From IMG/VR virus record IMGVR_UViG_3300028558_000083, positions 1 to 30,376 of that record: a stretch of DNA of 30,376 nt. One strand, given 5' to 3'. The position numbers and the translations under genes were made by a program. The notes beneath the pieces were generated by a model, which was given only the letters and a program-made list of their open reading frames with translations, ran no database searches and was not told the origin of the DNA. This DNA is from a virus. Below, piece by piece: positions 3,372 to 29,545 of this stretch (position 1 is its first letter; each line of letters opens with the position of its first letter).

Positions 3372-3394
3372 GTAGAGGAAGCCTGATACAATTC

Positions 3395-3428
3395 GGGCCG
3401 GTGCAGCGTTGACGCGCTAGACCGGCCC
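3395..3428 (+). other. Strong hairpin after the glycosyltransferase gene
   Basis: GGGCCGGT (3395-3402) and ACCGGCCC (3421-3428) pair perfectly over 8 bp, with partial further pairing inside (AGCG with CGCT). No T run follows, so it may be an RNA processing or stability element or a mobile-insert boundary rather than a simple terminator. Confidence 0.5.
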
Positions 3429-3457
3429 TGATCATTAACCGCTAAGGAACAGCGACT

Positions 3458-3914: not shown

Positions 3915-3919
3915 TAGTC

Positions 3920-4009
3920 GGCTCCGTCCGACTTAAGCCCTAATCATGGCCTTGGGCAAGCCTTGACCGCAATGCCGTGATGGCATCGCTTTCCACCTAG
4001 AACGGAGCC
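3920..4009 (+). promoter_or_regulatory. Structured leader before the tail tube gene
   Basis: GGCTCCGT (3920-3927) is exactly complementary to ACGGAGCC (4002-4009), which contains the GGAG ribosome site of the tail tube gene at 4017. Between them is a small local hairpin, ATGCC-gtgat-GGCAT. The long-range pairing could hide the ribosome site or protect the mRNA. A chance origin cannot be excluded. Confidence 0.35.
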
Positions 4010-4016
4010 TATAATC

Positions 4017-4502
4017 ATGGCCAGTTACACACCCGCCTCCTCAACCGCCACCCTAGTTGGTGTTGCCAAAACCAAAGTCTATCTCGGGACGTCCACGACC
4101 ACTGCGGATAACGATGCTTTCGTTGAAATCGGCGGTGTGATGGAGATTCCAGAATTCGGGGCTTCTGACACTGAAATCAAGACCCAGCTTGTCGGGCAAG
4201 ACCTTGAGCAGACTGATAAGGGAGTCACGACGCTGGGCGGCGGTAATCTTGTTTGCGCCCGTGACTATTCTGATACCGGTCAGACCAATATGAGCGCCGC
4301 ACAAGCCGATAAGTCAGGCGTCAATTACAATCTTCGAATTGTGTTCCCAAATAAGATTACTTCCACGGGAACTGGAACGATGTATGACCTTAAGGTAAAG
4401 GTTCTTGGTGACCGTATCGTTACTGGCGGCCCGAATAACATTACAAAGGTAAACTACGCTCTCGGCTTCAACAGCCGTCCGACGAAGACCCCCGCGACCT
4501 AA
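4017..4502 (+). CDS. Major tail tube protein (putative)
   Basis: 161 aa, Thr/Ser/Gly-rich, almost all beta, low in cysteine. It has the pattern of siphophage tube subunits: a short N-terminal arm, then KVYLGTSTT and EIGGVMEIPEFG, a lead-in to the tube beta-sandwich. It lies between the tail terminator and the chaperone pair that precedes the tape measure gene, the canonical position. GGAG lies 9 bases before the ATG. It would polymerise as rings around the tape measure protein to form the non-contractile tail. Confidence 0.75.
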   Translation: MASYTPASSTATLVGVAKTKVYLGTSTTTADNDAFVEIGGVMEIPEFGASDTEIKTQLVGQDLEQTDKGVTTLGGGNLVCARDYSDTGQTNMSAAQADKSGVNYNLRIVFPNKITSTGTGTMYDLKVKVLGDRIVTGGPNNITKVNYALGFNSRPTKTPAT

Positions 4503-4587
4503 TCCGGGGCAACCCGGTAGGGTGGGGCGCTGTTGTCGGGACGGCGCTCCATCCGCTCTTATTCCATCCCGATATGAGGCACCCGAC

Positions 4588-4779
4588 ATGCCAAGAACAC
4601 TAGACTACTGTGGCGTTCGATCGCTCTGCGGAAAGCAGATTGCGAATGAACTCTTTGGCCGCACTATCCCGGATGGTTTCGACATGGATCACCCAGGAGA
4701 CGAAGAGGCAATTTCGGCAATCGTTCGTGAATTTGAACCTTGTGCAAATTGCTCATACGAAGACCACTGCGAACCTTAA
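4588..4779 (+). CDS. Small cysteine-containing protein (63 aa)
   Basis: The ATG at 4588 has GAGG eight bases upstream. An upstream in-frame ATG at 4522 lacks one and adds an unlikely N-terminus. Five cysteines occur as C8 and C14 near the N-terminus and CANCSYEDHC at the C-terminus, which suggests metal binding, but the set is not a standard zinc finger I can name. It lies between the tail tube and chaperone genes, an unusual spot for such a protein. Confidence 0.55.
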   Translation: MPRTLDYCGVRSLCGKQIANELFGRTIPDGFDMDHPGDEEAISAIVREFEPCANCSYEDHCEP

Positions 4780-4800
4780 CCCGACGAAAGAAATCCCGAC

Positions 4801-5265
4801 ATGACCAAGAACATCATTGACCTCGACGCCATGGCCTACCGCGATACCGGCGTGTGCGAAATTAAGCACCCCGTATCGAAGGCGATCATTGGCCGCATCG
4901 AATGCCATTCTCCCCGATCCCCTGTCGTCATCGCGTTTGACGATGCCCAGGCGATGAAGGACGCGGCAGAGGACCGCGAACACGCTAAGGCCCGTATTGA
5001 CGCGGCCATTGCCAGCGCCCCGGAGCCAACTAGCCCCAAAGACGCCCGCACTCCCGCCGAGTGGCGCGAACGTGCATTCCGTCGCCTTGCCGTCCACGTC
5101 ATTAAGGGCGACTTCGAAATCAAGATCGACGGCAAATCCCAACCCTTCACTTCCGAAACTGCACTTGCAGTTTTCAATTCCCCCCGCAATGACTGGTTGA
5201 CGGCGCAGTTTGCCGATTACGTAGGAAAGACGGAAAATTTTACTCCGAACTCTGCGGACGCCTGA
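4801..5265 (+). CDS. Tail assembly chaperone, short form (gpG-like)
   Basis: 154 aa between the tail tube and tape measure genes, the place of lambda gpG. It is mixed helix/strand and acidic, with an Ala/Pro-rich linker around residues 68-85. In lambda-type phages the short chaperone coats the tape measure protein during tail assembly and is made in excess over its frameshifted extension. The ribosome site before 4801 is weak (AAAGAAAT). Its 3' end overlaps the -1 frame that carries the extension. Confidence 0.7.
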   Translation: MTKNIIDLDAMAYRDTGVCEIKHPVSKAIIGRIECHSPRSPVVIAFDDAQAMKDAAEDREHAKARIDAAIASAPEPTSPKDARTPAEWRERAFRRLAVHVIKGDFEIKIDGKSQPFTSETALAVFNSPRNDWLTAQFADYVGKTENFTPNSADA

Positions 5266-5705
5266 TCCGGTTCGCAGAGTACCAGTTCCGACTAGGGAAG
5301 ACCCTAAAGGACAAAGACGGAAAATCGGTAGGGACAAATCGGGACTGGCTTAATCGGTATCTGAAAGACAATTCAGGATACTCCGCCGCTCAGATACGGA
5401 AGGCTCTTAACGGGCCTTCCTGCCCCCGTTTGATGGCGCATTTGTGGGGATGGTTCCTCGAACTGTCCAACATGCGCGATTGGGGAGAGGGTGGCCCTCG
5501 GGCCATTAAACCGACCGACATCTCCGCATGGTCTGGTCTAGTCGGAGTTTCTCTACTTCCCCATGAAATACGCATCCTTTTAGACATGGATGTCCGCTTC
5601 CGAAATATCCATGCGGAAGACGAAACGCCTGAAAATCTCAGCGCAGACGAACGCAACATGATTGCTTGGGTTGATGCCGCTCGGATGGCGGCTTCTTACG
5701 GATAG
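4801..5705 (+). CDS. Tail assembly chaperone, long form by -1 frameshift (gpGT-like)
   Basis: The -1 frame is open from before 5223 to the TAG at 5703-5705 and has no convincing own start. Its protein is clearly real: RFAEYQFRLGKTLKDKDGKS, later WSGLVGVSLLPHEIR and LLDMDVRF, resembling gpT-type extensions that bring the chaperone to the tail. A slip at A-AAT-TTT (5235-5241) joins 147 residues of the short form to 154 new ones, about 301 aa. A separate start inside the second frame (TTG 5430 or ATG 5433) would cut off conserved-looking sequence and lacks a ribosome site. Confidence 0.75.
5235..5241 (+). promoter_or_regulatory. Programmed -1 slippery heptamer
   Basis: In the zero frame the codons read gAA-AAT-TTT-ACT. 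A-AAT-TTT fits X XXY YYZ with X=A, Y=T, Z=T, so both tRNAs can re-pair as AAA-TTT. It lies 24 bases before the zero-frame stop (5263-5265), the usual arrangement for siphophage chaperone frameshifts. No obvious long stem follows. Confidence 0.65.
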
Positions 5706-5715
5706 GAATTGATCT

Positions 5716-8709: not shown

Positions 8710-9332
8710 CGATTACCTATCCCCTTTCATTCCCCGCCAGTCTTTATCCCACAAGCATGATGCTAACCCCGTCCGATGCTGTAGCGCGGGCGGCATCTCC
8801 ATTCACATATCAGGAACAGGTCCAGCGGCACCAGGGCCAGCAATGGCTATTGACGCTTGAATATTCCAATGTGAATGCCGTTTTGCTGGATAATTTTGCC
8901 GCATTTCTGATGCGCCTGAAGGGTCCATATGGGACATTTCTATTTAACGATCCGACTAAAACGTCTCCTCGCGGTATTGGGACTGGTGCGCCCCTCGTTG
9001 ACGGATCGGCGCAATCTGGCGACTACCTCAATACTAAAGGGTGGACACCCGGCACAACTGGCATCATGAAGGCGGGCGACTATATCCAGCTTGGGAGCTC
9101 TGGAACGGCGCGGCTGTATCGGTTAACGGCGGACGCGAATTCAGATAGCTCAGGAAAAGCCTCCCTCGAAATCTGGCCGCAGATTAGACAATATCCCGCC
9201 GCTCCGTCCGACAATGACGCGATTGTAGTGTCATCTCCTTCTGGTCGATTCCGCCTAGACAAATCAACGGGGTGGAAGATCAAGCCGCCTGTCCTTGGTA
9301 GCATTCAAATCACCGCACATGAGGCGCTATAA
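8706..9332 (+). CDS. Distal tail protein-like
   Basis: 208 aa from a GTG overlapping the tape measure stop by four bases. It resembles a phage family whose hallmark is a Trp-containing strand, then FAAFLMRLKGPYGTFLFNDP and a Pro-Arg-Gly segment. It is beta-rich and ends WKIKPPVLGSIQITAHEAL. Position directly after the tape measure gene fits a distal tail (Dit/gpM-analogue) ring protein that connects tube and hub. The specific Dit assignment is inferred from order. Confidence 0.65.
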   Translation: MTITYPLSFPASLYPTSMMLTPSDAVARAASPFTYQEQVQRHQGQQWLLTLEYSNVNAVLLDNFAAFLMRLKGPYGTFLFNDPTKTSPRGIGTGAPLVDGSAQSGDYLNTKGWTPGTTGIMKAGDYIQLGSSGTARLYRLTADANSDSSGKASLEIWPQIRQYPAAPSDNDAIVVSSPSGRFRLDKSTGWKIKPPVLGSIQITAHEAL

Positions 9333-9886
9333 TGTCTAGGACAATCAGCGCCGATATGATCGCGGAAAGCAAGAAGAGTGAACTTGCTCCAATTCTTCTT
9401 GCTCAGGTCGGATTTTCTAGCGGTATCGTTTACGCCTGGACCGGATATGGTGATCTTGTCTGGAATGGTCACACCTACCTTGGCGTCGGAACTATGGGCA
9501 GCGTCGAGGCCGTCACTGATACTTCTGACCTCTCCGCTCAGGGAATGGCGTTCACGCTGGAGGGAATTTCAACTTCCTCATTATCCCTAGCTATTGGCGA
9601 TGCGGCCCAAGGTCTTCCCGCAAAATTATGGCTTGGAGCGCTTACTTCGGCAGGCGTCCTTATCCCGTCTCCCGTCTTAATCTTCTCAGGATTAACGGAT
9701 GTCCCCAAGATCACGGAATCGGGGGAAACTGCCGCAGTGACAATCATGTGTGAAAATAAGCTCGCGCGCCTCGCAACGGCGGCGTCTCGACGCTTTACCC
9801 CCGACGATCAAGCGATTGATTATCCCGGTGACCGGGGGTTTGATTACGTTGCCGCCCTTCAAGATATGCAAATCAAGTTTGGATAA
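9332..9886 (+). CDS. Minor tail / hub adaptor protein
   Basis: 184 aa. The ATG overlaps the previous stop as TAATG. It is beta-rich with YAWTGYGDLVWNGHTYLGVG near residue 40 and ends with RRFTPDDQAIDYPGDRGFDY and ALQDMQIKFG, a C-terminal signature shared by many phage minor tail proteins next to hub genes. It fills the slot of lambda gpL or the DUF2163 proteins of gene-transfer-agent-like tails. Unlike gpL it has only one cysteine, so an iron-sulphur cluster is unlikely. Confidence 0.6.
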   Translation: MSRTISADMIAESKKSELAPILLAQVGFSSGIVYAWTGYGDLVWNGHTYLGVGTMGSVEAVTDTSDLSAQGMAFTLEGISTSSLSLAIGDAAQGLPAKLWLGALTSAGVLIPSPVLIFSGLTDVPKITESGETAAVTIMCENKLARLATAASRRFTPDDQAIDYPGDRGFDYVAALQDMQIKFG

Positions 9887-9890
9887 TAAA

Positions 9891-10331
9891 ATGGCTCTCT
9901 CCCGACGAGAAGACTGGTCTCAGCGCCTTGATGCCGCGATTAATGCCGCACGCACGGTTCCGTTTGGCTACGCTCCCGGCGAGAACCACTGCTGTCTGTT
10001 CATGGGAGATTGCGTGATTGCCATGACCGACACTGACGTAATGCATTGGTTCCGTGGCAAATATAATAGCGAGCGTGGGGCTTATGTTGCGGTCAAGCGG
10101 CATGCAGGCGGCGGCCTAGTCCAAACATTTGAGAAGATTGCAGAAGAGTTTGGCATTGAAGAAATTCCGGTTCAATACGCATCACCCGGTGATGTTGTGA
10201 TGCACATTGCTGGCGATGACGGGTCTGAGGGCTGTGGTATTAGCCTCGGAAGCCGCTTTGTGACGGTTTGTAAGCCTGCGGGAGTAAAGTTTGAGCCAAT
10301 GACAACGGCAATTCGGGCTTGGAGGATTTAG
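9891..10331 (+). CDS. DUF6950-like tail tip protein
   Basis: 146 aa. Visible family features: RREDWSQRLDAAINAAR start, then VPFGYAPGENHCCLF (the Phe-x-Tyr/Trp-Gly...Asp/His-Cys-Cys segment), WFRGKY, a central GDVVMHIAG strand, and a C-terminal AIRAWRI. This family sits where NlpC/P60 peptidases occur in related tails and may descend from them. The Cys is kept but a full Cys-His-His triad is not evident, so enzymatic activity is uncertain. It lies between the minor tail and J-like genes, 4 bases after the stop of the former. Confidence 0.7.
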   Translation: MALSRREDWSQRLDAAINAARTVPFGYAPGENHCCLFMGDCVIAMTDTDVMHWFRGKYNSERGAYVAVKRHAGGGLVQTFEKIAEEFGIEEIPVQYASPGDVVMHIAGDDGSEGCGISLGSRFVTVCKPAGVKFEPMTTAIRAWRI

Positions 10332-10334
10332 GGT

Positions 10335-13300
10335 ATGCCCGCAATCGCCGTTGCCGCTGTCGCGGCCGCCATGTCCGGTGCTATGGCTGCTGCATCTGGC
10401 GCTGTTATTCTTGGGCTTACGGGAACAATGCTTGGTGTTGCCGTTGGTGCTCTTTCATTTGCTATGTCCGTTGTCATGCAAGTTCTTGCCCCCACTCCGG
10501 GAAAGGGGCCTCAAGGAACGGCAGCACCCCCATTAGCTGCGCAAGACAGACAGGCAAATATCAGACAGCCGATCATGCATTGGCAGCAAATATACGGCCA
10601 AGCCCGCGTCGGTGGCGCAATCACATTTCAGCACACAACTAATAACAACAAGACCCTTCACTATCTTCTTACTATCGCCGGACACTCAGTCGATGAAATT
10701 GGGGCGCTATACCTAAATGAACACATTGTAAACCTTGACAGCAATGGCAACGCTATTTCTCCGACCGACCCAGACCCATCAATTCCAAACTGGTCTGGGA
10801 AACTAACCGTCTGGAGGGGTCTGGGAACGGATGACGGAGATGCCAATCTATGGGATGCTATGAGGTCAAATTGTTCTGACAAATGGACAGACGAGCATAA
10901 GCAGCGGGGTAGGGCTAAGGTATATTTAAAGTTCGAATACGATAGTAATCTATTTGCTGGAGGCTTTCCGAAGATCACTGTAGTTGTTCGTGGCAAGAAA
11001 GTTTACGATCCTCGCGGAACGTCTATATCTATTACGTCTTCGTCAGTTGGATCGCCGGGGCTTTTTTCTACATCATCTCCGCATAACCTTTCTGTTGGCG
11101 ATGAGGTATATATCGCAAATCATTCAGACGCTATTGGTGGCCGTGATATAGGCCCGATTGATGGAGCATATATTGTTGATACTGCTCCAACTGCATCTAC
11201 ATTTACGCTGCGCGATTCCTCTTATGCCGTGAACATCACAGTCGCGGGCACTGGAGGAATTGTATCAAAGATGGCGTGGTCCGCCAATCCAGTCCTTTGC
11301 ACTCGAGACTATATGGCCGACAAATATGTTGGCCCGTCTATTCTCTCTACTGAAATTGATGATTCTGGCTCTGGAATTGCCGGGTCTAATATTTGTGAGC
11401 AATACGTGCAGCTTGCAAGCAACTCGGAAACATTTACCGCAAATTCCACAACGAATATCATTACTCTTTCTAGTGACGTATCTTGGCCTACGGGAACTCA
11501 GGTTTATATTTCATCGACTGGCAGCTTGCCAAGTGGCCTGCCTAATTCAGGCCCTTATTATGTGGTGAATACCAATCCAGGTGGAAGTGGGAGCACATCA
11601 GAATATAAACTATCAAATACAAGCAGGAATGCTCTATCTTTTGATGTAATTTCTCTTGGATCATCTGGCTCTGGAACTCTTACCATATTCAGGGGCGTAT
11701 CATTTACAGCAAGCGTATCCCCATATAAGTCATGGGATGATCGTGCATATCTGTCTCTATACCCAGATGTTGCCGGTGAAATTCTTGGGGGCACGGGCGG
11801 AGGATGGTGGGGAAACGGCTCTGTTGGAAATTTCATACCCGTTACATCTGGGGCTCAACGCGGTGAGGACCACTATATCAATGTTGGGCAAGCGGAGGGG
11901 CGGCAGTCATTCTATACTGATGGAAACGGTTATCTGTTAACATCAGCATATACTAGTATTTCATCGACAATTTCCGGCATATCATCGACAACATATACAA
12001 CTAGCTCAATCCCATATAGGACGGGAGACAAAGTAAAAGTATTTTCAACTGGTTCACTGCCGTCTGGCCTATCATCTTCAGAAACTTACTATTGGATATC
12101 AAACGATACTCAGAACGGACATATTGCGTCATCTCTTATTAATGCCATTAGCGGAATCCCTGTAGAGTTTTCAGATTCTGGGACCGGAACACATATTGTC
12201 TACTCCACCCATGAACAGCGTTATACCTGTAATGGTGTTCTGGACACGACAAAAGTTCCAAGCTCAATCATTCAAGACCTCATGTCTTCGATGTCTGGAA
12301 AGGTGGCGTGGACTGGCGGGCAGTTCGTCATGCTTCCTGGATACTATCGCGCCCCATCTGTGACAATTGATGAAAACGATGTAATCGGTCCAATCCAGGT
12401 TCAAAGCCGCATTTCTCGGCGAGACCTGTATAACCGCGTCAAGGGCACATTCATTGACCCAACGTCTTCATGGCAGCCTAACGATTTTCCGGCAGTAATT
12501 AGCTCATCCTATACGCAGGAAGACCAAGGCGTACCTCTATGGGCCAACTTTGATCTTGGCTTCACGGATTCGCCCTCAACTGCTCAGCGTCTCGCCGCCA
12601 TCGCCATGGAGAGCGTGCGCCGACAGATGACCGTAACGATGTCTTGTAAACTAACTCTCCTTGAGACGAGAGTTGGTGATGTTGTGATGGTCAATAACAC
12701 ACGCTTTGGATGGTCAAATAAGACTTTCGAGATTGTTGATTGGACATTCGCCAGCATCATGGTTGATGGCGGAGGCGATACTCAGGTTCCATATCTCGGC
12801 ATCAACCTTATGCTCCGAGAAACTGATGCGGATGTGTATGCATGGTCATCCTCTCAGCAGGTTGTTACTCTTCCCGCCCCAAGAACAAATCTACCGACAC
12901 CATGGCTCGTTTCCCCTCCGTCAAATATTGTTACATCTGAATCTGTATATACCACTGATGGTGGCTCAGCGCTGCTATCATCTCTAAGTGTATCCTGGGA
13001 TATTTCTCTAGATGAATCTGTGCAATATTACTATGTATCCTACAAACCATCGGGCCAGACTATATGGTCTCCCGCAATCCCAACAACACCAGATTCAACT
13101 AACACTAAAATACTCGGGTTATCGCCGGGACAATATGACATTCGCGTTCAGGCAATAAATTCACTTGGGGCATCTAGTGAATATTCCACCGTAGACAACG
13201 TAAATATCCTTGGGATTTCACTACTTCCATCACTGAATGCACCTCAAATAACATCTATTTCTGAATCTCTTGTTGAAGTAAATGGTGGACAGGGCGTAAA

Positions 13301-14645
13301 CAGTCAAGCTACTGTTTCTTTTTCGTCACCACCAAATACAGAATGGGACTCGTCTGGAGTATCCATCATATATTATCAGGTTGAATATAGAAGAGTTGGA
13401 GATGCTTTTTGGGTCATTCTAGGAACGCCAGATTCATCGCCCCAGGTTGCGCTTGGAGCGGTCGGAAGTTTCGAATGGAGGGTTAAGGCGACAATGAGCA
13501 TTGGCGTGGATACGCCATATTCAGACATTTTTTCATATGAACTTCGGGGACTCACTGATCCGCCTTCCGACATCACTGGGTTTTCGGTGCAATCCGTCAA
13601 TGGCCTCGCTTATGTCCAGTGGGATGCATCTCAAGACCTTGACGTTAAGATCGGAGGATTTATTCGCGTCAAATATACCCCCCTCACGTCTGGAGCGGTC
13701 TGGAATGACGGAACTGATATCGGACCGCAATTCCCCGGAACATCAACGCACGGGGTTCTTCCGCTGCTTACCGGAACATATATGATAAAAGCCGTCGATT
13801 CCTCGGAGAATTACAGCGCAAATGAATCATCAATGTCAGTGACTGCCCCAGTTATCCAGCGCTTCAGTGGGATTATCGATATTGATGAACATCCATCATT
13901 CTCTGGACCGAAAACCAATATGGTCGTATCGGGCTCTGACCTCCAACTCGGGACCGGGGCGCTCTTCGATGATCTTGGGTTAATCGATAGTCTAGGCCTG
14001 ATTGATTATGCCGGTGGAATCGTCTCTGCCGGATCATATGAATTCGCTAATATTGCCGATCTAGGCGGAGTATATACGGTCAGGGTTACATCAAATGTAA
14101 ACTCAGTGGCATTCAATACTGGTGACCTGATTGATTCGAGGACATCATATATTGATGCATGGGGAAGCTTTGACGGAACAGTTATAAATTCAATATCATT
14201 GCAACTTCATATATCAACCACAAATGACAACCCATCCGGAGTGCCAACATGGTCTCCATGGAAGCCGTTTTATATTGGAGATTACTCTGCGCGAGCAATG
14301 AGGTTCAGGGTTATCGTTACAAATAGTGATTCAACATCAAATATCAGCATCTCTGAGTTGGCGGTAAATATAGCCATACCTCACGTAACACTTGATATTT
14401 GCACGTCAACATCAATATCTGCTTCGGGGCAATCATTCACATATTCTTCTATATCAGGCGGCCATTCATTCTATTCTCCCCCAACAATAAATATAACCCC
14501 ATCAAATATGGCAACTGGTGATTATTATCTAATTTCATCTGCAACAAGGTCTGGATTCACGATACAGTTCTTCAACTCTTCTGGAGTTGGCATATCGAGA
14601 ACAGTAGATATTAGCGTATCTGGGTTTGGACAACAAACAGCATAG
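10335..14645 (+). CDS. J-like central tail hub / host specificity protein
   Basis: 1436 aa with GGAGG nine bases before the ATG. Residues 1-50 are hydrophobic Ala/Gly-rich helices typical of TipJ-type proteins, then QANIRQPIMHWQQIYGQARV and YLLTIAGHSVDEIGALYLNE, the hub start. Residues about 228-310 are an inserted E1-FCCH-like beta domain (SPHNLSVGDEVYIANHSD). Two related beta segments carry STGSLPSGL (about 394 and 571). Between them is a YPDVA...HYINVGQAEGR motif (470-523). The hub core resumes (YNRVKGTFIDP, then MTVTMSCKLTLLETRVGDVV). About three fibronectin-III-like domains follow (860-1165), then a beta-rich C-terminus. It attaches the tail to the host surface. Codon use is more A+T-rich than in upstream tail genes. 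Confidence 0.85.
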   Translation: MPAIAVAAVAAAMSGAMAAASGAVILGLTGTMLGVAVGALSFAMSVVMQVLAPTPGKGPQGTAAPPLAAQDRQANIRQPIMHWQQIYGQARVGGAITFQHTTNNNKTLHYLLTIAGHSVDEIGALYLNEHIVNLDSNGNAISPTDPDPSIPNWSGKLTVWRGLGTDDGDANLWDAMRSNCSDKWTDEHKQRGRAKVYLKFEYDSNLFAGGFPKITVVVRGKKVYDPRGTSISITSSSVGSPGLFSTSSPHNLSVGDEVYIANHSDAIGGRDIGPIDGAYIVDTAPTASTFTLRDSSYAVNITVAGTGGIVSKMAWSANPVLCTRDYMADKYVGPSILSTEIDDSGSGIAGSNICEQYVQLASNSETFTANSTTNIITLSSDVSWPTGTQVYISSTGSLPSGLPNSGPYYVVNTNPGGSGSTSEYKLSNTSRNALSFDVISLGSSGSGTLTIFRGVSFTASVSPYKSWDDRAYLSLYPDVAGEILGGTGGGWWGNGSVGNFIPVTSGAQRGEDHYINVGQAEGRQSFYTDGNGYLLTSAYTSISSTISGISSTTYTTSSIPYRTGDKVKVFSTGSLPSGLSSSETYYWISNDTQNGHIASSLINAISGIPVEFSDSGTGTHIVYSTHEQRYTCNGVLDTTKVPSSIIQDLMSSMSGKVAWTGGQFVMLPGYYRAPSVTIDENDVIGPIQVQSRISRRDLYNRVKGTFIDPTSSWQPNDFPAVISSSYTQEDQGVPLWANFDLGFTDSPSTAQRLAAIAMESVRRQMTVTMSCKLTLLETRVGDVVMVNNTRFGWSNKTFEIVDWTFASIMVDGGGDTQVPYLGINLMLRETDADVYAWSSSQQVVTLPAPRTNLPTPWLVSPPSNIVTSESVYTTDGGSALLSSLSVSWDISLDESVQYYYVSYKPSGQTIWSPAIPTTPDSTNTKILGLSPGQYDIRVQAINSLGASSEYSTVDNVNILGISLLPSLNAPQITSISESLVEVNGGQGVNSQATVSFSSPPNTEWDSSGVSIIYYQVEYRRVGDAFWVILGTPDSSPQVALGAVGSFEWRVKATMSIGVDTPYSDIFSYELRGLTDPPSDITGFSVQSVNGLAYVQWDASQDLDVKIGGFIRVKYTPLTSGAVWNDGTDIGPQFPGTSTHGVLPLLTGTYMIKAVDSSENYSANESSMSVTAPVIQRFSGIIDIDEHPSFSGPKTNMVVSGSDLQLGTGALFDDLGLIDSLGLIDYAGGIVSAGSYEFANIADLGGVYTVRVTSNVNSVAFNTGDLIDSRTSYIDAWGSFDGTVINSISLQLHISTTNDNPSGVPTWSPWKPFYIGDYSARAMRFRVIVTNSDSTSNISISELAVNIAIPHVTLDICTSTSISASGQSFTYSSISGGHSFYSPPTINITPSNMATGDYYLISSATRSGFTIQFFNSSGVGISRTVDISVSGFGQQTA

Positions 14646-17129: not shown

Positions 17130-17549
17130 ATGAGTGAATTTGAGATTGACACTCTGGCCCGAACCTTATGGGGTGAGGCTCGCGGCGAGGGAGAATTGGG
17201 TATTGAGGCAGTGGCCTGCGTTATTGCCAATCGCGTTGCTATCGCGGAGAAAGGGCGAGGCCCCAGAATGTTCGGGACAGGCACATTCGAAAGCGCGTGC
17301 CGGTTCCCATATCAGTTTTCTTGCTGGCTTCCGAGCGATCCGAATTTGGAAAAACTGAAATCCGTGACGGAGGATGACCGCGCTTTCCGAGTTTGCATGG
17401 GCATCGCTGAAATCGCGGTTTCCGGCAACCTGGAGGACATCACGGTCTCCGCGACCCACTATCACACGAAACAGATTAAGCCCGCCTGGGCGGCCGGAAA
17501 AGCGCCGTGCGCGACTATCGGAAACCACTTGTTCTATAGGGGGGTTTAA
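17130..17549 (+). CDS. SleB-like cell wall hydrolase (endolysin)
   Basis: 139 aa covering just the Hydrolase_2 / SleB domain. ARTLWGEARGEGELGIEAVA holds the candidate catalytic Glu (E16), followed by VIANRV, CRFPYQFSCWL (the Cys-Arg-x-Pro-x-Gln-Phe-Ser-Cys-Trp signature), SATHYHT and IGNHLFYRG. Such enzymes cleave the glycan strand of peptidoglycan. There is no signal peptide, so release would need the holin encoded 4 bases downstream. GCGGGG precedes the ATG. Confidence 0.9.
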   Translation: MSEFEIDTLARTLWGEARGEGELGIEAVACVIANRVAIAEKGRGPRMFGTGTFESACRFPYQFSCWLPSDPNLEKLKSVTEDDRAFRVCMGIAEIAVSGNLEDITVSATHYHTKQIKPAWAAGKAPCATIGNHLFYRGV

Positions 17550-17553
17550 CAGC

Positions 17554-18120
17554 ATGCTGCCTTTGATTGGTCTCGCTGCACAGTTTCTGCCATCAATTGT
17601 GGGCTGGGCTTTTGGCGATAGTGCGGAGAAAGTGACGACTAGTGTCGTCGGCGCTGCACAGGAAATATTCGGCACCGATGATGTTGACCAAATCAACAAA
17701 GCCATCGCCGCCGATCCGAACCTAGCCCTACAATTCAAGAGCAAGCTTCTCGATATTCAGGCACAGGCGCAGCACGATGCGCACGAACTGAGCATGAAGG
17801 AGATTGAGGACAAGCAGAGCGCCCGTTCGTCTTTCGCGTCCAACCGTGGCGTTCTTATTCTCGGTATGGTTCAGGTAATTGGCTATATCGTCGTGGTTGG
17901 GGCCGTCGTCTGGGGGGCTTTTTCCATGTTGTCTGGATCGTCGTCTCTTGCAGGAAAAGACCCCGGCACCGTCGCCGTGGTTGCAAGTATTGTTTCCGCC
18001 GCTGTGACCCAACTTGGTAACATGGCGATGCAACCTAATAGCTTCTTTTATGGATCGTCAAAAGAAGCCATTGACGGCGTGAAGCAATTCGCTTCATCTA
18101 TTGGGAAAATCAGCAAATAG
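17554..18120 (+). CDS. Putative holin (three-helix membrane protein)
   Basis: 188 aa from the ATG at 17554, ten bases after a GGGGGG run; the longer frame upstream overlaps the hydrolase gene and is rejected. It has a short hydrophobic N-terminus (LPLIGLAAQFLPSIVGWAFG), a charged helical middle (about 60-105) and two strong hydrophobic helices near 108-135 and 140-162. That agrees with the 3TM phage holin group seen beside endolysins in gene-transfer-agent-like and rhizobial phages. It would make holes in the inner membrane to release the hydrolase. Confidence 0.65.
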   Translation: MLPLIGLAAQFLPSIVGWAFGDSAEKVTTSVVGAAQEIFGTDDVDQINKAIAADPNLALQFKSKLLDIQAQAQHDAHELSMKEIEDKQSARSSFASNRGVLILGMVQVIGYIVVVGAVVWGAFSMLSGSSSLAGKDPGTVAVVASIVSAAVTQLGNMAMQPNSFFYGSSKEAIDGVKQFASSIGKISK

Positions 18121-18250: not shown

Positions 18251-18502
18251 CTACGGCCTGTCTGGTGCACACGTGGGCTCTACCCATCCGCCAGATAGCC
18301 ACCGAGCGCGTCGACCATCTGGGCAAATCCACGGCTTACCAGTAACATCCCCCTGATAATGGTCATACGATTTTTCTAGCCATCCACCGGGAGGGGCAAT
18401 CTCCCGCCCATTGAGTGGAGATGCATCGAATGTACCGGGGTCAAAGCTGGCGCAGGCCGAAATAGATGCCGCCATCGCCACGCAAATGATAATCTTCCTC
18501 AT
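18251..18502 (-). CDS. Small lipoprotein (83 aa)
   Basis: MRKIIICVAMAASISACASF is a lipoprotein signal with lipobox I-S-A-C and the lipidated Cys at 17. The mature part is Pro/Gly/Trp-rich with two further cysteines (about 59 and 78). GAGG is ten bases before the ATG. It is the last gene of the minus-strand run and converges on the lysis genes. An outer-membrane spanin role is thinkable but unsupported because it is on the opposite strand from the endolysin. A superinfection-exclusion lipoprotein is another option. Confidence 0.65.
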   Translation of the reverse strand: MRKIIICVAMAASISACASFDPGTFDASPLNGREIAPPGGWLEKSYDHYQGDVTGKPWICPDGRRARWLSGGWVEPTCAPDRP

Positions 18503-18583: not shown

Positions 18584-18784
18584 CTATTTAATTTTCACCA
18601 TCTCCACCTCATATCCGAGAGCATTCAAAATACGATCAAGCGTTCTTGTTCGGCAGTCGCACCGTTCATTTTCCAATCGATTGATAGTATTGATATGCAC
18701 CTTTGATATCTCGGAAAGTTGAAGCTGAGAAAGTCCAACCTCTTCCCGCATTCCCCGCAAATATTGGACTGTGTATTTCATCAT
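18584..18784 (-). CDS. XRE-family helix-turn-helix regulator
   Basis: 66 aa, a bare HTH domain: YLRGMREEVGLSQLQLSEIS is helices 1-2, KVHINTINRLENER the recognition helix, then TLDRILNALGYEV. There is no partner domain. The ATG overlaps the stop of the upstream gene (ATGA), so it is translated with the minus-strand micro-genes and lies at their distal end. It also resembles antitoxin-type HTH proteins, but no toxin-like partner is recognised among its neighbours. Confidence 0.85.
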   Translation of the reverse strand: MMKYTVQYLRGMREEVGLSQLQLSEISKVHINTINRLENERCDCRTRTLDRILNALGYEVEMVKIK

Positions 18785-18954
18785 TCTTCATACACTCCGG
18801 TACAAATGGCCGTAATGCGCTTTTCTTCCTGTCGCGCTTCGGCAATAACCTGTCGCTTCATCGAAATGCAATCATCAAGCGTGGGTCGCTCCAACTGCAC
18901 CCACATGCATTCCGATCCCATGCACGTCATGAACGTGAGAAGATATAGCATCAT
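18781..18954 (-). CDS. Small exported Cys-containing protein (57 aa)
   Basis: The ATG at 18954 forms a four-base overlap (ATGA) with the upstream stop, which fixes the start over the longer frame beginning at 18972. It begins MMLYLLTFMTCMGSECMWVQ, a hydrophobic export-like N-terminus, and holds four cysteines (11, 16, 29 and about 51), a pattern suited to disulphides outside the cytoplasm. PTLDDCISMKR in the middle recalls a class of tiny phage and plasmid proteins of unknown role. Confidence 0.6.
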   Translation of the reverse strand: MMLYLLTFMTCMGSECMWVQLERPTLDDCISMKRQVIAEARQEEKRITAICTGVYEE

Positions 18955-19094
18955 CTTGCAAGCGCCTCGCACGATGTTTTGGCGATATCATATTGCTGTT
19001 GCGCCGCTGCCCCAAAAAAGAGAAACAGAAGGCACAACAAAGCGGCCAAACAGAAGGCCATTAATGCTGAGCAAGCATCTCTGATATTTTTCAT
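18951..19094 (-). CDS. Single-helix membrane micro-protein (47 aa)
   Basis: It starts at 19094 with GGGG about eight bases upstream and a four-base ATGA overlap with the preceding gene. The longer frame reading back to 19310 is rejected because two other genes occupy that stretch with proper overlaps. It has a short charged N-terminus, a strong hydrophobic helix at about 9-30 (ALMAFCLAALLCLLFLFFGA), then AAAQQQYDIAKTSCEALAR. Probably an inner membrane protein; function unknown. Confidence 0.65.
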   Translation of the reverse strand: MKNIRDACSALMAFCLAALLCLLFLFFGAAAQQQYDIAKTSCEALAR

Positions 19095-19240
19095 CGAAAT
19101 CCCCGGCTGTATGCATATCCGATAATAGCTCCCCACGACGCCACCGCGCATAGGATGATGAAAATCCACACCTTGACCGGGGACGGGCACTTTCCTTCGC
19201 TCAATCGGTTCGGGCCGCGGGGCATTCCGACGCGGGTCAT
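19091..19240 (-). CDS. Single-helix membrane micro-protein (49 aa)
   Basis: ATG at 19240, stop at 19091. It overlaps the upstream stop and downstream start by four bases each (ATGA at both ends), which is strong evidence for translation. The basic N-terminal 22 residues (MTRVGMPRGPNRLSEGK) lead to a hydrophobic helix (VWIFIILCAVASWGAIIGYA) and a basic tail. Function unknown. It is translationally linked to another single-helix protein downstream. Confidence 0.65.
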   Translation of the reverse strand: MTRVGMPRGPNRLSEGKCPSPVKVWIFIILCAVASWGAIIGYAYSRGFR

Positions 19241-19551
19241 TTTGCATCATCCTTCTTGGCGAAGGGGGAAGTGCGAAGGATGTCGATCCATGCGGCGAGA
19301 GCATACGCAAGAGCCTGCGAGCCTCCGTTGTCTCGGATTGTCGAACGAGTGTGATCCGACATCACTTCATGGAGCGTCACCAGCCCGGCGCGTTCGTCGG
19401 CTTCTCGGATGGAGCGGGCAAATGGCAAATAATTTTCCCATCGCTTGTCAATATAATTTTCAGTCGCCACTTGTTCAAAATGATTAAGGTGATATTCGGC
19501 ACACATAGCCCGCGCCCTCATCTCGTCCAGTTCTTCAATCGTCGAAACCAT
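19237..19551 (-). CDS. Hypothetical protein (104 aa)
   Basis: GGGAGGTAGAG lies just before the ATG at 19551, two bases after the ATPase stop. It is mostly helical, with MRARAMCAEYHLNHFEQVAT early and a C-terminal SQALAYALAAWIDILRTSPF helix. No motif is recognised. It is co-transcribed directly behind the Sak4-like ATPase gene. Confidence 0.65.
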   Translation of the reverse strand: MVSTIEELDEMRARAMCAEYHLNHFEQVATENYIDKRWENYLPFARSIREADERAGLVTLHEVMSDHTRSTIRDNGGSQALAYALAAWIDILRTSPFAKKDDAK

Positions 19552-19553
19552 CT

Positions 19554-20495
19554 CTACCTCCCATCATCCAACACACTGCCATCACTCGCATTTTCCGCCT
19601 CTCTAGCGGCTTCATCCGCTGCAATGGCAATACCCTTAAGCTCGGCATCCATAAGGGGCTTTAGCGCGGCTTGCTGGGGCTTTGTGATGCCAGACCAGAA
19701 TGCCTTAAGCCGTTCCATGCCTTCGGACGCCGCTTCGCGGGCATCGCGCTCGATTGCGACCATATCAAAGTCAATCACCTTTCCGCCCCGCACCCATTCG
19801 GCAATCTTCTCGCCAGTCTCGACGCTGAGTTTCTGATCCTTGCGAATGACGCTGGCCAGCGGTTCCGGTACCTTGATTGCCGGAATGAGCGGGTTGCACT
19901 TGATAAGCTCGCTTCCGTCCTGAAACTGCGGCATGTGGTTCGGTCCGAGCAGCACGGAAACCGTCATATCATAGATGAAAGAGAAGTCCTTGCCGCATAC
20001 GGGCTGCGCCCCGATGTTAGTGACTTCCTTTCCGAGTTGCTTAATGCCATCCTTGGCGCGAAGCAGGAAAATGACATGAACATTAGACCGCAACAGCCGG
20101 TCAGTCATTTTTCGATAGTTGATCTTCGGAGCCTTCCAGGCTTGCAGTCCATTGCCCTGCATCCCCTGATCGACAATACCCCCTTCCCCCGCCCAGACAT
20201 GGGAAATCGTGTCAAACACGACACATGCCGCCCGGCCCTTTAGCGCAACCTCGAAAGCCTCAATGTATCGCTGCGTGGTAAACGGTGGCTGTAGGTCGAT
20301 ATGGTACCAGCCGCCGATCATGCCGTCATAGTATTCGGCGCGACGGTTCTCCGTATCAACCACGACGACTATTCCATCAGGACCAGCCAGCCCACGGGCC
20401 ACCAGCAGCGACGAATACGTCTTGCCGCTATTGCTCGGACCCCACAGGGCCACAAGGGCGGGCATGTTCTTGCGTTCAGCTTTCTTCATTTCCAT
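19554..20495 (-). CDS. RecA-fold ATPase, Sak4-like recombination protein
   Basis: 313 aa from the ATG at 20495 with GGAGG seven bases upstream; the 24 bases open beyond it are rejected. Walker A is GPSNSGKT at 19-26. A Walker-B-like strand CVVFDT is near residue 95, and VHVIFLLRAKD follows as a sensor strand. A helical Ala/Glu-rich tail (about 230-313) closes it. Phage Sak4-type proteins are single-strand annealing or recombination ATPases that work with SSB. Here a RecE-like nuclease gene lies upstream and SSB is encoded in the divergent operon. Confidence 0.8.
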   Translation of the reverse strand: MEMKKAERKNMPALVALWGPSNSGKTYSSLLVARGLAGPDGIVVVVDTENRRAEYYDGMIGGWYHIDLQPPFTTQRYIEAFEVALKGRAACVVFDTISHVWAGEGGIVDQGMQGNGLQAWKAPKINYRKMTDRLLRSNVHVIFLLRAKDGIKQLGKEVTNIGAQPVCGKDFSFIYDMTVSVLLGPNHMPQFQDGSELIKCNPLIPAIKVPEPLASVIRKDQKLSVETGEKIAEWVRGGKVIDFDMVAIERDAREAASEGMERLKAFWSGITKPQQAALKPLMDAELKGIAIAADEAAREAENASDGSVLDDGR

Positions 20496-20719
20496 GAGAA
20501 ATCCTCCAGTGCAGACCAAAGGCTAAAATCAATATCCCCGCCGTGATGGTCCATTGCAGACTTATGGGTATTGATTGCCCGTTCCAGCGTATCAATCCGA
20601 TCCAGCAACGCGAGAACGTCTTTAGGTCGTGTCGCCCCAAAATATTCAGCCTGAACTCCGCGCCCCGTATCTTCTGATGCCAGCACCGCCAGCCGTCGCA
20701 GTTCCTCCACATCAACCAT
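20486..20719 (-). CDS. Small hypothetical phage protein (77 aa)
   Basis: The ATG at 20719 is chosen because GAGGAGG lies five bases before it and it begins 11 bases after the nuclease stop. The longer frame to 20761 lies inside the nuclease gene. It carries VDVEELRRLAVLASED near the start and ATRPKDVLALLDRIDTLERA, a helical segment common to small early phage proteins. Its 3' end overlaps the ATPase start by 10 bases. Confidence 0.7.
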   Translation of the reverse strand: MVDVEELRRLAVLASEDTGRGVQAEYFGATRPKDVLALLDRIDTLERAINTHKSAMDHHGGDIDFSLWSALEDFSWK

Positions 20720-20729
20720 TCCATCCTCC

Positions 20730-21788
20730 TCAATCATGAATCCAAATCGGCAATTCTTCATCCGTGAAATCCGTCATCGGCCCGAAATCATGCCATGGAA
20801 CATCCGGCCCGAAGCGTTCCATGCAATCACGGTATAGCTCGACGCCATGCCGGAACATCCGATAGCCAGACTGCCAAGCCATCATTTCTCCCCTATTTTT
20901 ATCACGACGCAGGAACCGACGCACGCGAATATTCGGCACTTTGCCCGTTTGCATGAACAAAAAAATGAAGGCGTGCTCGGGCGACGATGCGAAAGCATCA
21001 AGCCATTCCTGCGGCGGGGCATCACCGAAAACAGCACCGGCCTTAACCAGCGGCTTGGCCTGTTCAATGCCGGTCATGTAGGTAGCGGCCTGGATGTTGT
21101 ACTTCCTCGCAGCCATGGCGCGGGCGATGGCCTCGTCCACCGGAAACTTCGCCGGGTTGCCAAACGTCTTCAGGTCAATCGCAGCCTTAGCCTTGAGATA
21201 GTCAACCTTGACCTTCATGCGCACGCCGGTTTCTTCATCAATCCAGAAGATTGCTACCTCGGGATATCCGCCGGTCAGGCACTTGCGGGCGTCGGGATGC
21301 CAATCAAGCGCCTTGGCCGTCCGTTCCATTTCCTTGAACGCGGCTCGGGACAGCATTTCCTTTCCTTCGTTCGCCGCCTTGTGGTTTTCCACCATGACCG
21401 GCCACAGTTCAGCGCACGGATCAGCCTCATGGATGCGCTCGCACATGGCCGCAATCGTGCCACCCGCCGAAACTCCAAGGCGTTTGCATTCCGCCCGCAA
21501 CTCATCACCACCGGAAAGCGCATTCGGGAAATCAGCCTTATCCAGCGCAACAGCATAAGCCGCGTTGAATGCGTCAATCCCCTCTCCAAAAAAGCAATGG
21601 AAAGCGCGGCCCTTGATGAAATGGTCTTCCTCTTCCTCCGGTTCAGCCTCGGGATTTAGCGGGCTTTCCATCCAGTAATCGAGCGGAGATACCAATAGGT
21701 TTTTGATACCCGTCACGCTTAACGCAGGATCGGCATGGTATTCCTCATTCGACATCCCGAAATATACGCCGGGCGCATTGTTAGTCAT
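20730..21788 (-). CDS. RecE-like PD-(D/E)xK exonuclease (DUF3799-type)
   Basis: 352 aa from the ATG at 21788 with AGAGG eight bases before it. The 53 codons beyond it overlap another gene and are rejected. The N-terminus GVYFGMSNEEYHADPALSVT followed by KNLLVSPLDYW is typical of phage RecE-type nucleases. The active site is in VRMKVKVDYLKAKAAIDLKT (D...D-x-K). A Gln-containing helix, YNIQAATY, follows as in lambda-exonuclease-fold proteins. It would resect double-stranded ends for annealing, with the ATPase encoded just downstream. Confidence 0.85.
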   Translation of the reverse strand: MTNNAPGVYFGMSNEEYHADPALSVTGIKNLLVSPLDYWMESPLNPEAEPEEEEDHFIKGRAFHCFFGEGIDAFNAAYAVALDKADFPNALSGGDELRAECKRLGVSAGGTIAAMCERIHEADPCAELWPVMVENHKAANEGKEMLSRAAFKEMERTAKALDWHPDARKCLTGGYPEVAIFWIDEETGVRMKVKVDYLKAKAAIDLKTFGNPAKFPVDEAIARAMAARKYNIQAATYMTGIEQAKPLVKAGAVFGDAPPQEWLDAFASSPEHAFIFLFMQTGKVPNIRVRRFLRRDKNRGEMMAWQSGYRMFRHGVELYRDCMERFGPDVPWHDFGPMTDFTDEELPIWIHD

Positions 21789-21957
21789 GGGAAAGCCTCT
21801 TGTCAGGAACATTAATTCCGTGCCCCTTGAGGAACCTACGGGTTTCCTCTTCGGCTTCGAAAAACTCTTCCAAATCTGCATTGACCAGAATTTGGAGAAG
21901 CGCGCACGCACGTTGGAATTTGCGCTTCTCGGCTTCCAACGGGTCAATGTTGCTCAT
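21781..21957 (-). CDS. Small helical hypothetical protein (58 aa)
   Basis: The ATG at 21957 has AAGGA nine bases upstream and a four-base overlap with the micro-gene before it. It reads MSNIDPLEAEKRKFQRACAL, then an acidic helix (LEEFFEAEEETRRFL) and ends GHGINVPDKRLSHD. It overlaps the nuclease start by eight bases, so translation of the two is probably coupled. It looks soluble; no family recognised. Confidence 0.65.
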   Translation of the reverse strand: MSNIDPLEAEKRKFQRACALLQILVNADLEEFFEAEEETRRFLKGHGINVPDKRLSHD

Positions 21958-22091
21958 TTCGTCTTTTCCTTCGCACATGTAGACAGACCGAGAGAATAGC
22001 CTTCCGTCCATGTCATCATATGATTAAAATTGAATAACATCATTGCCAACACAAATCCGCCAGCAAAGCTTGCGATCAGTACCCAGCGCAT
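21954..22091 (-). CDS. Single-helix membrane micro-protein (45 aa)
   Basis: MRWVLIASFAGGFVLAMMLF is a membrane helix right at the N-terminus, followed by a short His/Met/Trp stretch and a Lys-rich end (CAKEKTK). GGAG lies about eight bases upstream. It overlaps the upstream stop by one base (TGATG) and the downstream start by four (ATGA). This continuous coupling supports it despite its length. Function unknown. Confidence 0.65.
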   Translation of the reverse strand: MRWVLIASFAGGFVLAMMLFNFNHMMTWTEGYSLGLSTCAKEKTK

Positions 22092-22258
22092 CACCTGTTC
22101 TCCCTAAAACAATCCGGCCTATTCACAAACAAGCTCAACGGAAGACCCATCTTATCCGCCGCAATCTGTACAGCGATAGTCTCTGCCCGTCCGCAGTTTT
22201 TCCCATCCCTGAACTTTTCCCAGAACGGGCAAAAGGTCATGTCTCGATAGCAGAGCAT
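22091..22258 (-). CDS. Small Cys-rich protein (55 aa)
   Basis: MLCYRDMTFCPFWEKFRDGK then NCGRAE and a C-terminal RPDCFRENR. Four cysteines (3, 10, 22, 50) and the CYRDMTFC start are familiar from small proteins of rhizobial phages and suggest metal binding or disulphides. It is followed by a one-base TGATG overlap with the next gene. Ribosome site is weak, which suits coupling to the upstream micro-peptide four bases away. Confidence 0.65.
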   Translation of the reverse strand: MLCYRDMTFCPFWEKFRDGKNCGRAETIAVQIAADKMGLPLSLFVNRPDCFRENR

Positions 22259-22262
22259 TTTA

Positions 22263-22328
22263 TCACCAGACGATGGAGGTTGCGAGAATTGATGCGAAGG
22301 AGATGAATTTCAGGATGTGGTCAGTCAT
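22263..22328 (-). CDS. 21-aa membrane micro-peptide
   Basis: MTDHILKFISFASILATSIV ends with Trp and TGA. An AGGGGAC ribosome site lies five bases before the ATG, and the ATG overlaps the preceding stop by four bases (ATGA). The next gene begins four bases after its stop. Almost the whole peptide is one hydrophobic helix with a charged head, like tiny membrane regulators. It could also be a leader peptide that couples translation. Confidence 0.5.
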   Translation of the reverse strand: MTDHILKFISFASILATSIVW

Positions 22329-22474
22329 CGTCCGTCCCCTATATTATGGTCGTCGTGTCCCATAGCCAATGGCAAAAGACATATGGAGATACCAAAGGAT
22401 AATGTTAACAACATCACAATGAACCCAATGGGATCGGATAGACTGTGAAGCCACTCCATATAATCTTGCCACAT
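22325..22474 (-). CDS. Single-helix membrane micro-protein (49 aa)
   Basis: MWQDYMEWLHSLSDPIGFIV leads into a hydrophobic helix up to about residue 38, followed by a His/Asp-rich end (MGHDDHNIGDGR). The start shares one base with the upstream stop (TGATG) and the end overlaps the next ATG by four. A different minus frame over the same bases (22344-22535) lacks such links and is treated as a shadow. Confidence 0.6.
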   Translation of the reverse strand: MWQDYMEWLHSLSDPIGFIVMLLTLSFGISICLLPLAMGHDDHNIGDGR

Positions 22475-23091
22475 CACTTCGTCTCGTCCTTGACCGGCTC
22501 GTCCGTCTCCACAAGAGCAGCCAGAGCAGCGCCATTAGCGTCGAGGTATTCTGCGATGGGCTGCTCGCCCCGTGCCGCTGCTATGGCGGTGGCGTGATGG
22601 TCTTCTGTCTGCATGAGCGCGTAATCCCATGCATCAACCGGACTGTGCCCATCATCAAAGCCGTGCGCATCTACAGGTGATCCGCAGCAGCACGTCCCGA
22701 TATTGTCGGTGTGCTGGCACAAGTCCATGAATGCCAGCAGCGCCTCCCGCGCAACGGCGATGTCGGCTTCAATCTTTTCTGCTTTTCCCACCCTAACAAC
22801 CATTGCTGACCACAGTTCAGTCGCTTCGCTCATGGCTCTTTCAACACCATGTTCTTTTCTGTATTGCCCACCATCTCCGAGCAACAGGTCGAGAATATTT
22901 GCAAGATGTACTTCGGCCCTCTCGGCGCGATCAAACACGGCGGCAACAGCAGCCCTAAGTCCCCGGTCTTCCGCCTCCAACTCCGCAATGCGCTCGGCCT
23001 GGGCTTTGATAACATCTGATGCCTCGCCACACATCGGATTGCTATAAGAATATTCGCGGAGCCGCTCTGCTAAAATGATATAATCGATCAT
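22474..23091 (-). CDS. Coiled-coil hypothetical protein (205 aa)
   Basis: The ATG overlaps the upstream stop by four bases. Residues 25-120 are helical with coiled-coil character (AERIAELEAEDRGLRAAVAA). A middle CCCGSPVDAHGFDDGHSPVD segment with Cys, His and Asp could bind metal and resembles a motif of Ead/Ea22-like early phage proteins. The C-terminus is Ala/Glu-rich. Function is not known. Confidence 0.7.
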   Translation of the reverse strand: MIDYIILAERLREYSYSNPMCGEASDVIKAQAERIAELEAEDRGLRAAVAAVFDRAERAEVHLANILDLLLGDGGQYRKEHGVERAMSEATELWSAMVVRVGKAEKIEADIAVAREALLAFMDLCQHTDNIGTCCCGSPVDAHGFDDGHSPVDAWDYALMQTEDHHATAIAAARGEQPIAEYLDANGAALAALVETDEPVKDETK

Positions 23092-27156: not shown

Positions 27157-27338
27157 CCGCCGCAATCTACCGTGAACGCGCCCGCCAGTGCATCGATCAT
27201 GCTGATAGGCACGACGCGCACGCAATGGATACAAGCCGGGGAATGTCGGAACGTCACCGCGAGGTGGCGCTTTCCTATCGAAAAACGGCAGAAGCATTAA
27301 CCAAACTTTCCATCACAATCGGGGACGATTTAGGATGA
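27153..27338 (+). CDS. Small helical hypothetical protein (61 aa)
   Basis: ATGA overlaps at both ends tie it to its neighbours. MTAAIYRERARQCIDHADRH, then SERHREVALSYRKTAEALTK, basic helices rich in His and Arg. It may bind nucleic acid, but no motif is recognised. Confidence 0.65.
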   Translation: MTAAIYRERARQCIDHADRHDAHAMDTSRGMSERHREVALSYRKTAEALTKLSITIGDDLG

Positions 27339-27454
27339 CACTCGGCGCTATGATTGGCATGATGTGGTTGTCGTTGGTCGTCATTATCCCGCTGGCGTGT
27401 TGGATGCTGAGGAAGGCGACTGATGATATTTGTCGAGATGATGGAGGGGATTGA
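27335..27454 (+). CDS. Single-helix membrane micro-protein (39 aa)
   Basis: MTLGAMIGMMWLSLVVIIPL, then ACWMLRK and an acidic tail. It overlaps the preceding stop by four bases (ATGA) and the methyltransferase start by one (TGATG). TAGGA lies only just before the ATG, so it may depend on coupling. It is a plus-strand counterpart of the membrane micro-genes of the minus-strand operon. Confidence 0.6.
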   Translation: MTLGAMIGMMWLSLVVIIPLACWMLRKATDDICRDDGGD

Positions 27455-28756: not shown

Positions 28757-29545
28757 ATGGCAACTAAATCACGTCGCAAATCAATATCTCAAAAAGTAAG
28801 GTTTGAGGTTTTCAAGCGTGATTCATTCTGCTGCCAATATTGTGGTCAGTCTGCTCCTGATGTGATTCTGGAGGTTGATCACATTAAGCCCGTTGCCGGT
28901 GGCGGTGACAATGAAATCACAAATCTGATTACATCCTGCCGAGACTGCAATAATGGAAAGGGAGCTAGGCCACTTGACGACAAGTCTGTGCTTGACAAGC
29001 AACGGAAGCAACTTGAGGAGTTGAACGAGCGCCGCAATCAGCTTGAAATGATGCTGGAATGGAGGGAGGGGCTTGCTGATATTTGCGCGATGCAAACCAA
29101 CGCTGTTGTGTCGGCCATTAATTCAAAGTCAAACTTTTGCCTAAATGAAAGTGGTCGAAGAACAGTTTCTGGATGGGCAAAGAAATACAATATACAAGAT
29201 TTGCTTGATGCGGTTGATTCAGTATTTTCGCAAAAGCTTGTCATTAATGAAGATGGATCGGCTACAGAAGAATCTTGGTATGAAGCATATAGGCTAATAC
29301 CAAAATATGCTACCGTAAATAAAAACAGTTCAGGGAAACCTTATCTAAAAGACCTATTCTATATTCGAGGAATTATCCGCAACCGCCTGCCTAGGTACGA
29401 TCAACATAAATGTCTGTCTCTTCTGGAGAGAGCGATTATCGCTGGAGCCTCAATAGAGGGATTGCGTGAATTTTCCAAAACAGTTCGGACATGGGGTGAT
29501 TTTATAGAAGAAATGGAAAATTTCCTTGAGACTCATGAGGTCTAA
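28757..29545 (+). CDS. HNH endonuclease with long C-terminal helical domain
   Basis: 262 aa. The HNH domain is at residues 10-70: FKRDSFCCQYCGQSAPD (C26xxC29), EVDHIKPVAGGG (D41-H42), N56, and SCRDCNNGKG (C61xxC64, N65). It is complete, with structural zinc cysteines. The rest has a helical linker (LDKQRKQLEELNERRNQLEM) and an unassigned domain of about 150 residues. Intact, unlike the HNH/AP2 remnant at 3458. It may be a homing-type nuclease or take part in replication; its place in a replication operon is common. GAGAGG precedes the ATG. Confidence 0.85.
   Translation: MATKSRRKSISQKVRFEVFKRDSFCCQYCGQSAPDVILEVDHIKPVAGGGDNEITNLITSCRDCNNGKGARPLDDKSVLDKQRKQLEELNERRNQLEMMLEWREGLADICAMQTNAVVSAINSKSNFCLNESGRRTVSGWAKKYNIQDLLDAVDSVFSQKLVINEDGSATEESWYEAYRLIPKYATVNKNSSGKPYLKDLFYIRGIIRNRLPRYDQHKCLSLLERAIIAGASIEGLREFSKTVRTWGDFIEEMENFLETHEV

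Follow-up and report, generated by a model that had tools for sequence, protein, structure and literature searches.

The small early genes of the exo-xis region in lambda and lambdoid phages (orf60a, orf63, orf61, orf73 and ea22) are nonessential in the laboratory and have subtle effects on phage development. Of the modelled products, those of orf60a and orf61 are described as potentially DNA-binding and that of orf63 as a helical dimer (PMC8614690, PMC6213356). By position and probable role, this region is the nearest described case for a set of very small open reading frames (micro-ORFs) that we analysed in an uncultured virus. The window, by which we mean the whole stretch of DNA analysed, is the complete IMG/VR record IMGVR_UViG_3300028558_000083 (30,376 bases); it is still a genome fragment and represents part of the genome of an uncultured tailed phage, a siphophage. 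On its minus strand, micro-ORFs that each encode a single transmembrane (TM) helix lie in one operon with a recombination exonuclease and a RecA-like ATPase. The likeness to exo-xis is that very small genes accompany a recombination exonuclease in an operon of the early-left type. The lambda ORFs, however, form a conserved block, whereas the micro-ORFs of the window are without detected conservation, and the modelled lambda products are small soluble domains where those of the window are hydrophobic and one-helix.

Achromobacter phage Mano carries an annotated 44-residue, one-helix "putative membrane protein" in the same type of exonuclease-ATPase operon. Its gene is located between exonuclease VIII and the AAA ATPase, whereas the window genes lie both upstream and downstream of that pair, and no sequence similarity to the window microproteins was detected. 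Phage-encoded envelope proteins are also known as exclusion factors, among them HK97 gp15 and Tuc2009 Sie2009 (PMC10883804) and the Cor proteins of phi80 and N15 (PMC11436027). These are described as single-gene functions expressed from prophages, in contrast to the coupled early-type operon of the window; no domain-level match was found between them and the window proteins, and nothing ties them by sequence. Surveys of microbial small proteins put a sizeable minority in the transmembrane or secreted class, with 15.3% of families in PMC11364881, and the same paper cites a figure of 30% for small families of the human microbiome.

Four one-helix micro-ORFs are genuine, coupled genes

An earlier note on this DNA had described at least five translationally coupled one-helix genes on the minus strand and one on the plus strand. 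Within the 5.9-kb operon region, coupled ORFs of 20-75 residues with a TM helix number four on the minus strand and none on the antisense strand, while 400 first-order Markov shuffles of the region averaged 0.03 and never exceeded 1. By this measure the four are real genes. The start codon of each shares bases with the stop codon of the gene before it (ATGA or GTGA), giving a 4-nucleotide (nt) overlap, and the mean Kyte-Doolittle value of the hydrophobic 19-mer (KD19) is between 2.08 and 2.71. Plausible ribosome-binding sites are present upstream of most micro-ORFs. Several of the TM genes escaped a custom gene caller based on codon usage, probably owing to its training on large soluble and structural genes, and its output was used for the positions of the exonuclease and ATPase only.

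The first of the four (22325-22477, minus strand) encodes 50 residues from a GTG start, or 49 from the next codon, ATG. It has acidic tails and a KD19 of 2.53, and overlaps the preceding gene (22474-23091) by 4 nt. The second (21954-22094, minus strand) encodes 46 residues (45 from ATG) with a 23-residue C-terminal tail containing GYSLG and a KD19 of 2.08. It has 4-nt overlaps on both sides, as do the two that follow, and is located approximately 165 nt upstream of the exonuclease, within the zone where TM micro-ORFs recur in related phages. The microprotein of 19091-19240 (minus strand; 49 residues, KD19 2.25) has a basic 21-residue N-terminal tail and a short C-terminal tail, and its orientation is likely N-in. 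The most hydrophobic is encoded at 18951-19094 (minus strand; 47 residues from ATG, KD19 2.71); this helix terminates in GAAA↓QQ and so may serve instead as a signal peptide that is removed by cleavage. The fifth minus-strand candidate, at 22263-22328, overlaps 22325-22477 by 4 nt and occupies a stretch of approximately 66 nt that is otherwise empty, but as a TM protein it is doubtful because it is just 21 residues long and its KD19 is just 1.29. The plus-strand gene in the opposite, replication-type operon (27335-27454) is sound, with 39 residues, a KD19 of 2.24 and 4-nt overlaps with both neighbours.

The microproteins are unrelated and lack detectable relatives

The same note had called the microproteins a family. 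We compared them in 15 pairwise alignments against composition-preserving shuffles that kept the hydrophobic block intact. The lowest p value was 0.047, unadjusted, and no pair is convincingly alike, so the description does not hold. Searches of the small proteins against Pfam, PHROGs, NCBIfam and PADLOC gave no usable match.

Related loci were gathered by alignment-based scans with the exonuclease (80 viral loci) and the ATPase (80 loci each from bacteria and viruses). The set searched comprises approximately 255 loci and 3.7 Mb, in which the exonuclease and ATPase closest to those of the window share 47% identity with them. A tblastn search of this set with the one-helix proteins and the Cys-rich protein described below detected no relative, while the ATPase matched 179 times. 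Exact-peptide scans of IMG/VR with two one-helix proteins (those of 19091-19240 and 22325-22477) and with the Cys-rich protein returned nothing, and a first scan of genome contigs with the exonuclease alignment yielded no confirmed match. Conservation of the set was thus not seen by sequence among the related loci, where no marker is closer than 47%. The lack of mutual similarity, together with the lack of counterparts despite 179 ATPase matches, is as expected for accessory genes with a fast turnover.

One-helix genes recur in related operons by position, not by sequence

Coupled one-helix micro-ORFs are a regular feature of exonuclease-ATPase operons. At least one occurs within 6 kb in 87 of 143 non-redundant related phage loci (61%), at least three occur in 3 loci and four in 1. 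Related operons thus contain genes of this kind that differ in sequence, and the window is a dense example. Its sole match in density is a related phage locus (L196, 532-5504, plus strand) with four coupled one-helix micro-ORFs in 6 kb. Across 152 loci, the 900 nt before the exonuclease contain 25 TM micro-ORFs on the coding strand and 0 antisense.

We considered whether TM micro-ORFs are tied specifically to the exonuclease and set this aside, as a general crowding of small genes accounts for most of the pattern: in the same 152 loci, from phages and prophages of several phyla, coupled small genes, soluble as well as one-helix, are concentrated in the 1 kb that lies upstream of exonuclease VIII-like genes. 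Under a stricter filter, TM genes make up 13 of approximately 47 (28%) coupled micro-ORFs upstream of the exonuclease, after subtraction of the antisense count of soluble ORFs. In the window operon they make up 4 of the 8 coupled genes of 25-75 residues; the binomial chance of at least four at 28% is approximately 0.16, which is not significant, and the comparison is a rough one, as the two counts used slightly different filters. The high TM count reflects an operon rich in tiny genes, in which membrane genes are not clearly over-represented. The micro-ORFs belong to a loose kind, the single-TM phage microproteins of early operons, and not to a homologous family: they are 25-75 residues long, have one helix, are translationally coupled and lie in a recombination or early operon. 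As a set they are real, dense and ordinary in kind for a gene-dense phage operon.

A four-cysteine protein and a lipoprotein accompany the micro-ORFs

The coupled run also contains a four-cysteine protein (18781-18954, minus strand; 57 residues from ATG), which the earlier note had taken to be exported. The four cysteines and the coupling, by 4-nt overlaps on both sides, are confirmed, but the export signal is weak: its hydrophobicity is 1.29 and there is no basic n-region from the ATG. An alternative GTG start at 18972 gives 63 residues and a better signal, and the protein is possibly exported, as judged from its sequence. No convincing recurrence of the four-Cys exported-type pattern was seen in the related loci. 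Isolate phages gave chance-level matches only, and a search of the genomes of 13 relatives, run without a positive control, gave none.

The last gene of the operon (18251-18502, minus strand) encodes an 83-residue lipoprotein and bears out the statement that one lies with the micro-ORFs. Residues 1-17, MRKIIICVAMAASISAC, comprise the n-region MRK, an h-region and a good lipobox, ISA↓C at C17. These are the features of bacterial lipoproteins, namely a basic n-region, a hydrophobic h-region and a lipobox of the form [LVI][ASTVI][GAS]C near the N-terminus. The gene is separated from the coupled run by an 81-nt gap and is followed by a strong intrinsic terminator (18242-18218, minus strand; 11-bp stem with 7 G-C pairs, and a T-run) that closes the operon. 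Matches to the lipoprotein in isolate phages were at chance level only, and none was found in 289 genomes of one class in a search run without a positive control.

Two identities were tried for the lipoprotein and rejected. As a Cor superinfection-exclusion protein, it matches phrog_1119 with an E value of 0.017 over residues 1-22 only, the region of the signal peptide, and NF047972 with an E value of 0.21 and 11.6 bits, far under the NCBIfam cut-off of 31. As an outer or inner spanin, it matches phrog_3198 weakly (E value 0.03) over residues 2-37 only, much of which is signal peptide; the gene lies across the terminator from the lysis genes and runs on the other strand, and no coiled-coil partner was seen.

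Separate host-directed factors and alternative explanations

The exonuclease, the ATPase and a helix-turn-helix (HTH) regulator are encoded on one strand, divergent from the replication operon, which is an early-type layout. The minus strand between approximately 24.0 and 18.2 kb is best read as an early operon of lambda-PL-like type, and we infer early expression because the layout resembles the early-left operon of lambda. The explanation that we favour, and consider probable, is that the microproteins are separate accessory factors with a fast turnover, each acting through one helix in the inner membrane on a host protein located there. A recombination core, the PD-(D/E)XK exonuclease and the RecA-like ATPase, would be set amid numerous tiny accessory genes, four or five of which would encode unrelated one-helix inner-membrane proteins, alongside the possibly exported four-Cys protein and the lipoprotein. 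The ATGA and GTGA overlaps would couple translation from gene to gene, so that each protein would be produced early and in small quantity. Each helix would then insert alone and bind or perturb one host inner-membrane protein, with a role in transport, division, DNA entry or envelope stress. The microproteins would act as host-takeover or exclusion factors, gained and replaced one at a time. Tiny uncharacterised genes abound in the early operons of phages, with one-helix membrane proteins regularly among their products, and this locus may offer a compact source of candidate host-membrane inhibitors if examined gene by gene.

Several points weigh against separate factors. The density of the window, four TM micro-ORFs in 6 kb, is equalled by just 1 of the 143 related loci. 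The collections searched contain no close relative of the operon, as the 47% identity of the nearest exonuclease and ATPase indicates, and the genes may be a young, co-adapted and lineage-specific set. The earlier note had proposed an envelope-directed set made early. The envelope-directed sequence features and the early-type operon are present, but the genes are not a family, and neither one conserved system nor a single undescribed system is supported. A coordinated envelope set, in which microproteins, Cys-rich exported protein and lipoprotein would together block superinfection or envelope-based defence, is in our estimate unlikely. Exclusion factors are known among both the inner-membrane proteins and the outer-membrane lipoproteins of phages (PMC10883804, PMC11436027), and both the unusual TM gene density and the weak Cor profile matches of the lipoprotein speak for such a set. 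The Cor matches, however, are confined to the signal peptide region and fall far short of the NCBIfam cut-off, PADLOC gave no match, conservation of the set was not seen in the related loci, its members are unrelated, and the lipoprotein stands 81 nt away from the coupled run. Its strongest form, a single envelope-spanning assembly of the same components, made early through coupling, remodelling the envelope of the host to counter rival phages or envelope defence and too lineage-specific for the available relatives, is highly improbable.

The remaining alternatives concern the microproteins as toxins, as lysis proteins or as chance ORFs. Growth-inhibiting membrane peptides resembling type I toxins, which would depolarise or stall the host during takeover, are a decidedly unlikely explanation. 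The early operon is a usual site of toxic takeover genes. Size and one-helix form fit hydrophobic toxins such as those reviewed in PMC8309996, but there is no family match and several unrelated toxins in a row would be atypical; no antisense RNA or antitoxin turned up, with no search aimed at them. A role as lysis accessory proteins, whether as antiholin, small holin or, for the lipoprotein, outer spanin, would group them with the endolysin and holin-like genes at 17130-18120; we rate this very low. The lipoprotein does adjoin the endolysin (PF07486) and has the weak phrog_3198 match. The genes are nevertheless on the opposite strand, in a recombination operon that converges on the lysis genes with a terminator between them, the spanin match is confined to residues 2-37, and no candidate inner spanin, with a coiled coil in the periplasm, was seen. 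Chance or non-functional ORFs acting merely as translational links are likewise very improbable: none of the micro-ORFs has a homologue and 22263-22328 is short and weakly hydrophobic, but four coupled TM ORFs against 0.03 expected, their absence from the antisense strand and the mostly plausible ribosome-binding sites argue otherwise.

Other genes of the operon and the genomic setting

The larger genes of the minus-strand operon include an exonuclease VIII/DUF3799 PD-(D/E)XK nuclease of 352 residues (20730-21788; phrog_412, E value 3.4e-50; PF12684, E value 1.8e-12) and a RecA-like phage AAA ATPase of 313 residues (19554-20495; phrog_1366, E value 2.4e-47; PF13479). Between them is a conserved phage protein of unknown function of 91 (or 83) residues (20486-20761; phrog_4029, E value 1.7e-7). 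A soluble phage protein of 104 residues (19237-19551), assigned from operon position, is without a family match, and the regulator is a Cro/C1-type HTH protein of 66 residues (18584-18784; PF13560, E value 4.4e-8). A soluble ORF of 58 residues (21781-21957) lies between the TM gene 21954-22094 and the exonuclease, with a 4-nt overlap. The gene at 22091-22258 encodes a soluble four-Cys protein of 55 residues (C3, C10, C22 and C50) that begins MLCYRDMTFCP. This is no membrane protein; it probably binds metal, and Pfam, PHROG and NCBIfam gave no match to it. It has a relative in Caudoviricetes sp. vir555 (L259, 4001-4183) that is 44% identical over the full length and keeps 4 of 4 cysteines (E value 1e-8); the recorded host of vir555 is Methanomicrobiales.

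The plus strand carries tail genes, the endolysin and the holin-like gene up to 18120. The minus-strand operon extends from 24019 down to 18251, divergent from the replication-type operon that occupies the plus strand from 24147 to the window end. No capsid or packaging gene was recognised among the predicted ORFs of the window. Megablast of bases 1-25000 against isolate phage and plasmid records gave no DNA-level match, and an exact-peptide scan of IMG/VR with the ATPase returned nothing. The same scan with a tail protein had a sole match, a near-identical record of approximately 13 kb (L002) that differs from window positions 335-13484 at 2 of 13,150 bases and ends before the early operon. 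At the contig edge (2-204), the window contains approximately 34 copies of a CGGGTA-like 6-nt repeat, one frame of which encodes a Gly-rich GYGDGSG tail that ends at approximately 218 and is followed by a terminator-like hairpin. This repeat probably breaks assemblies, since L002 starts at nearly the same place. In the replication-type operon, an HNH-containing protein (28757-29545, plus strand) strongly matches phrog_16986 (E value 5e-75), a PHROG of unknown function, and proteins of this type are common to Pseudomonas, Komagataeibacter, Oenococcus and Escherichia phages at 40-44% identity.

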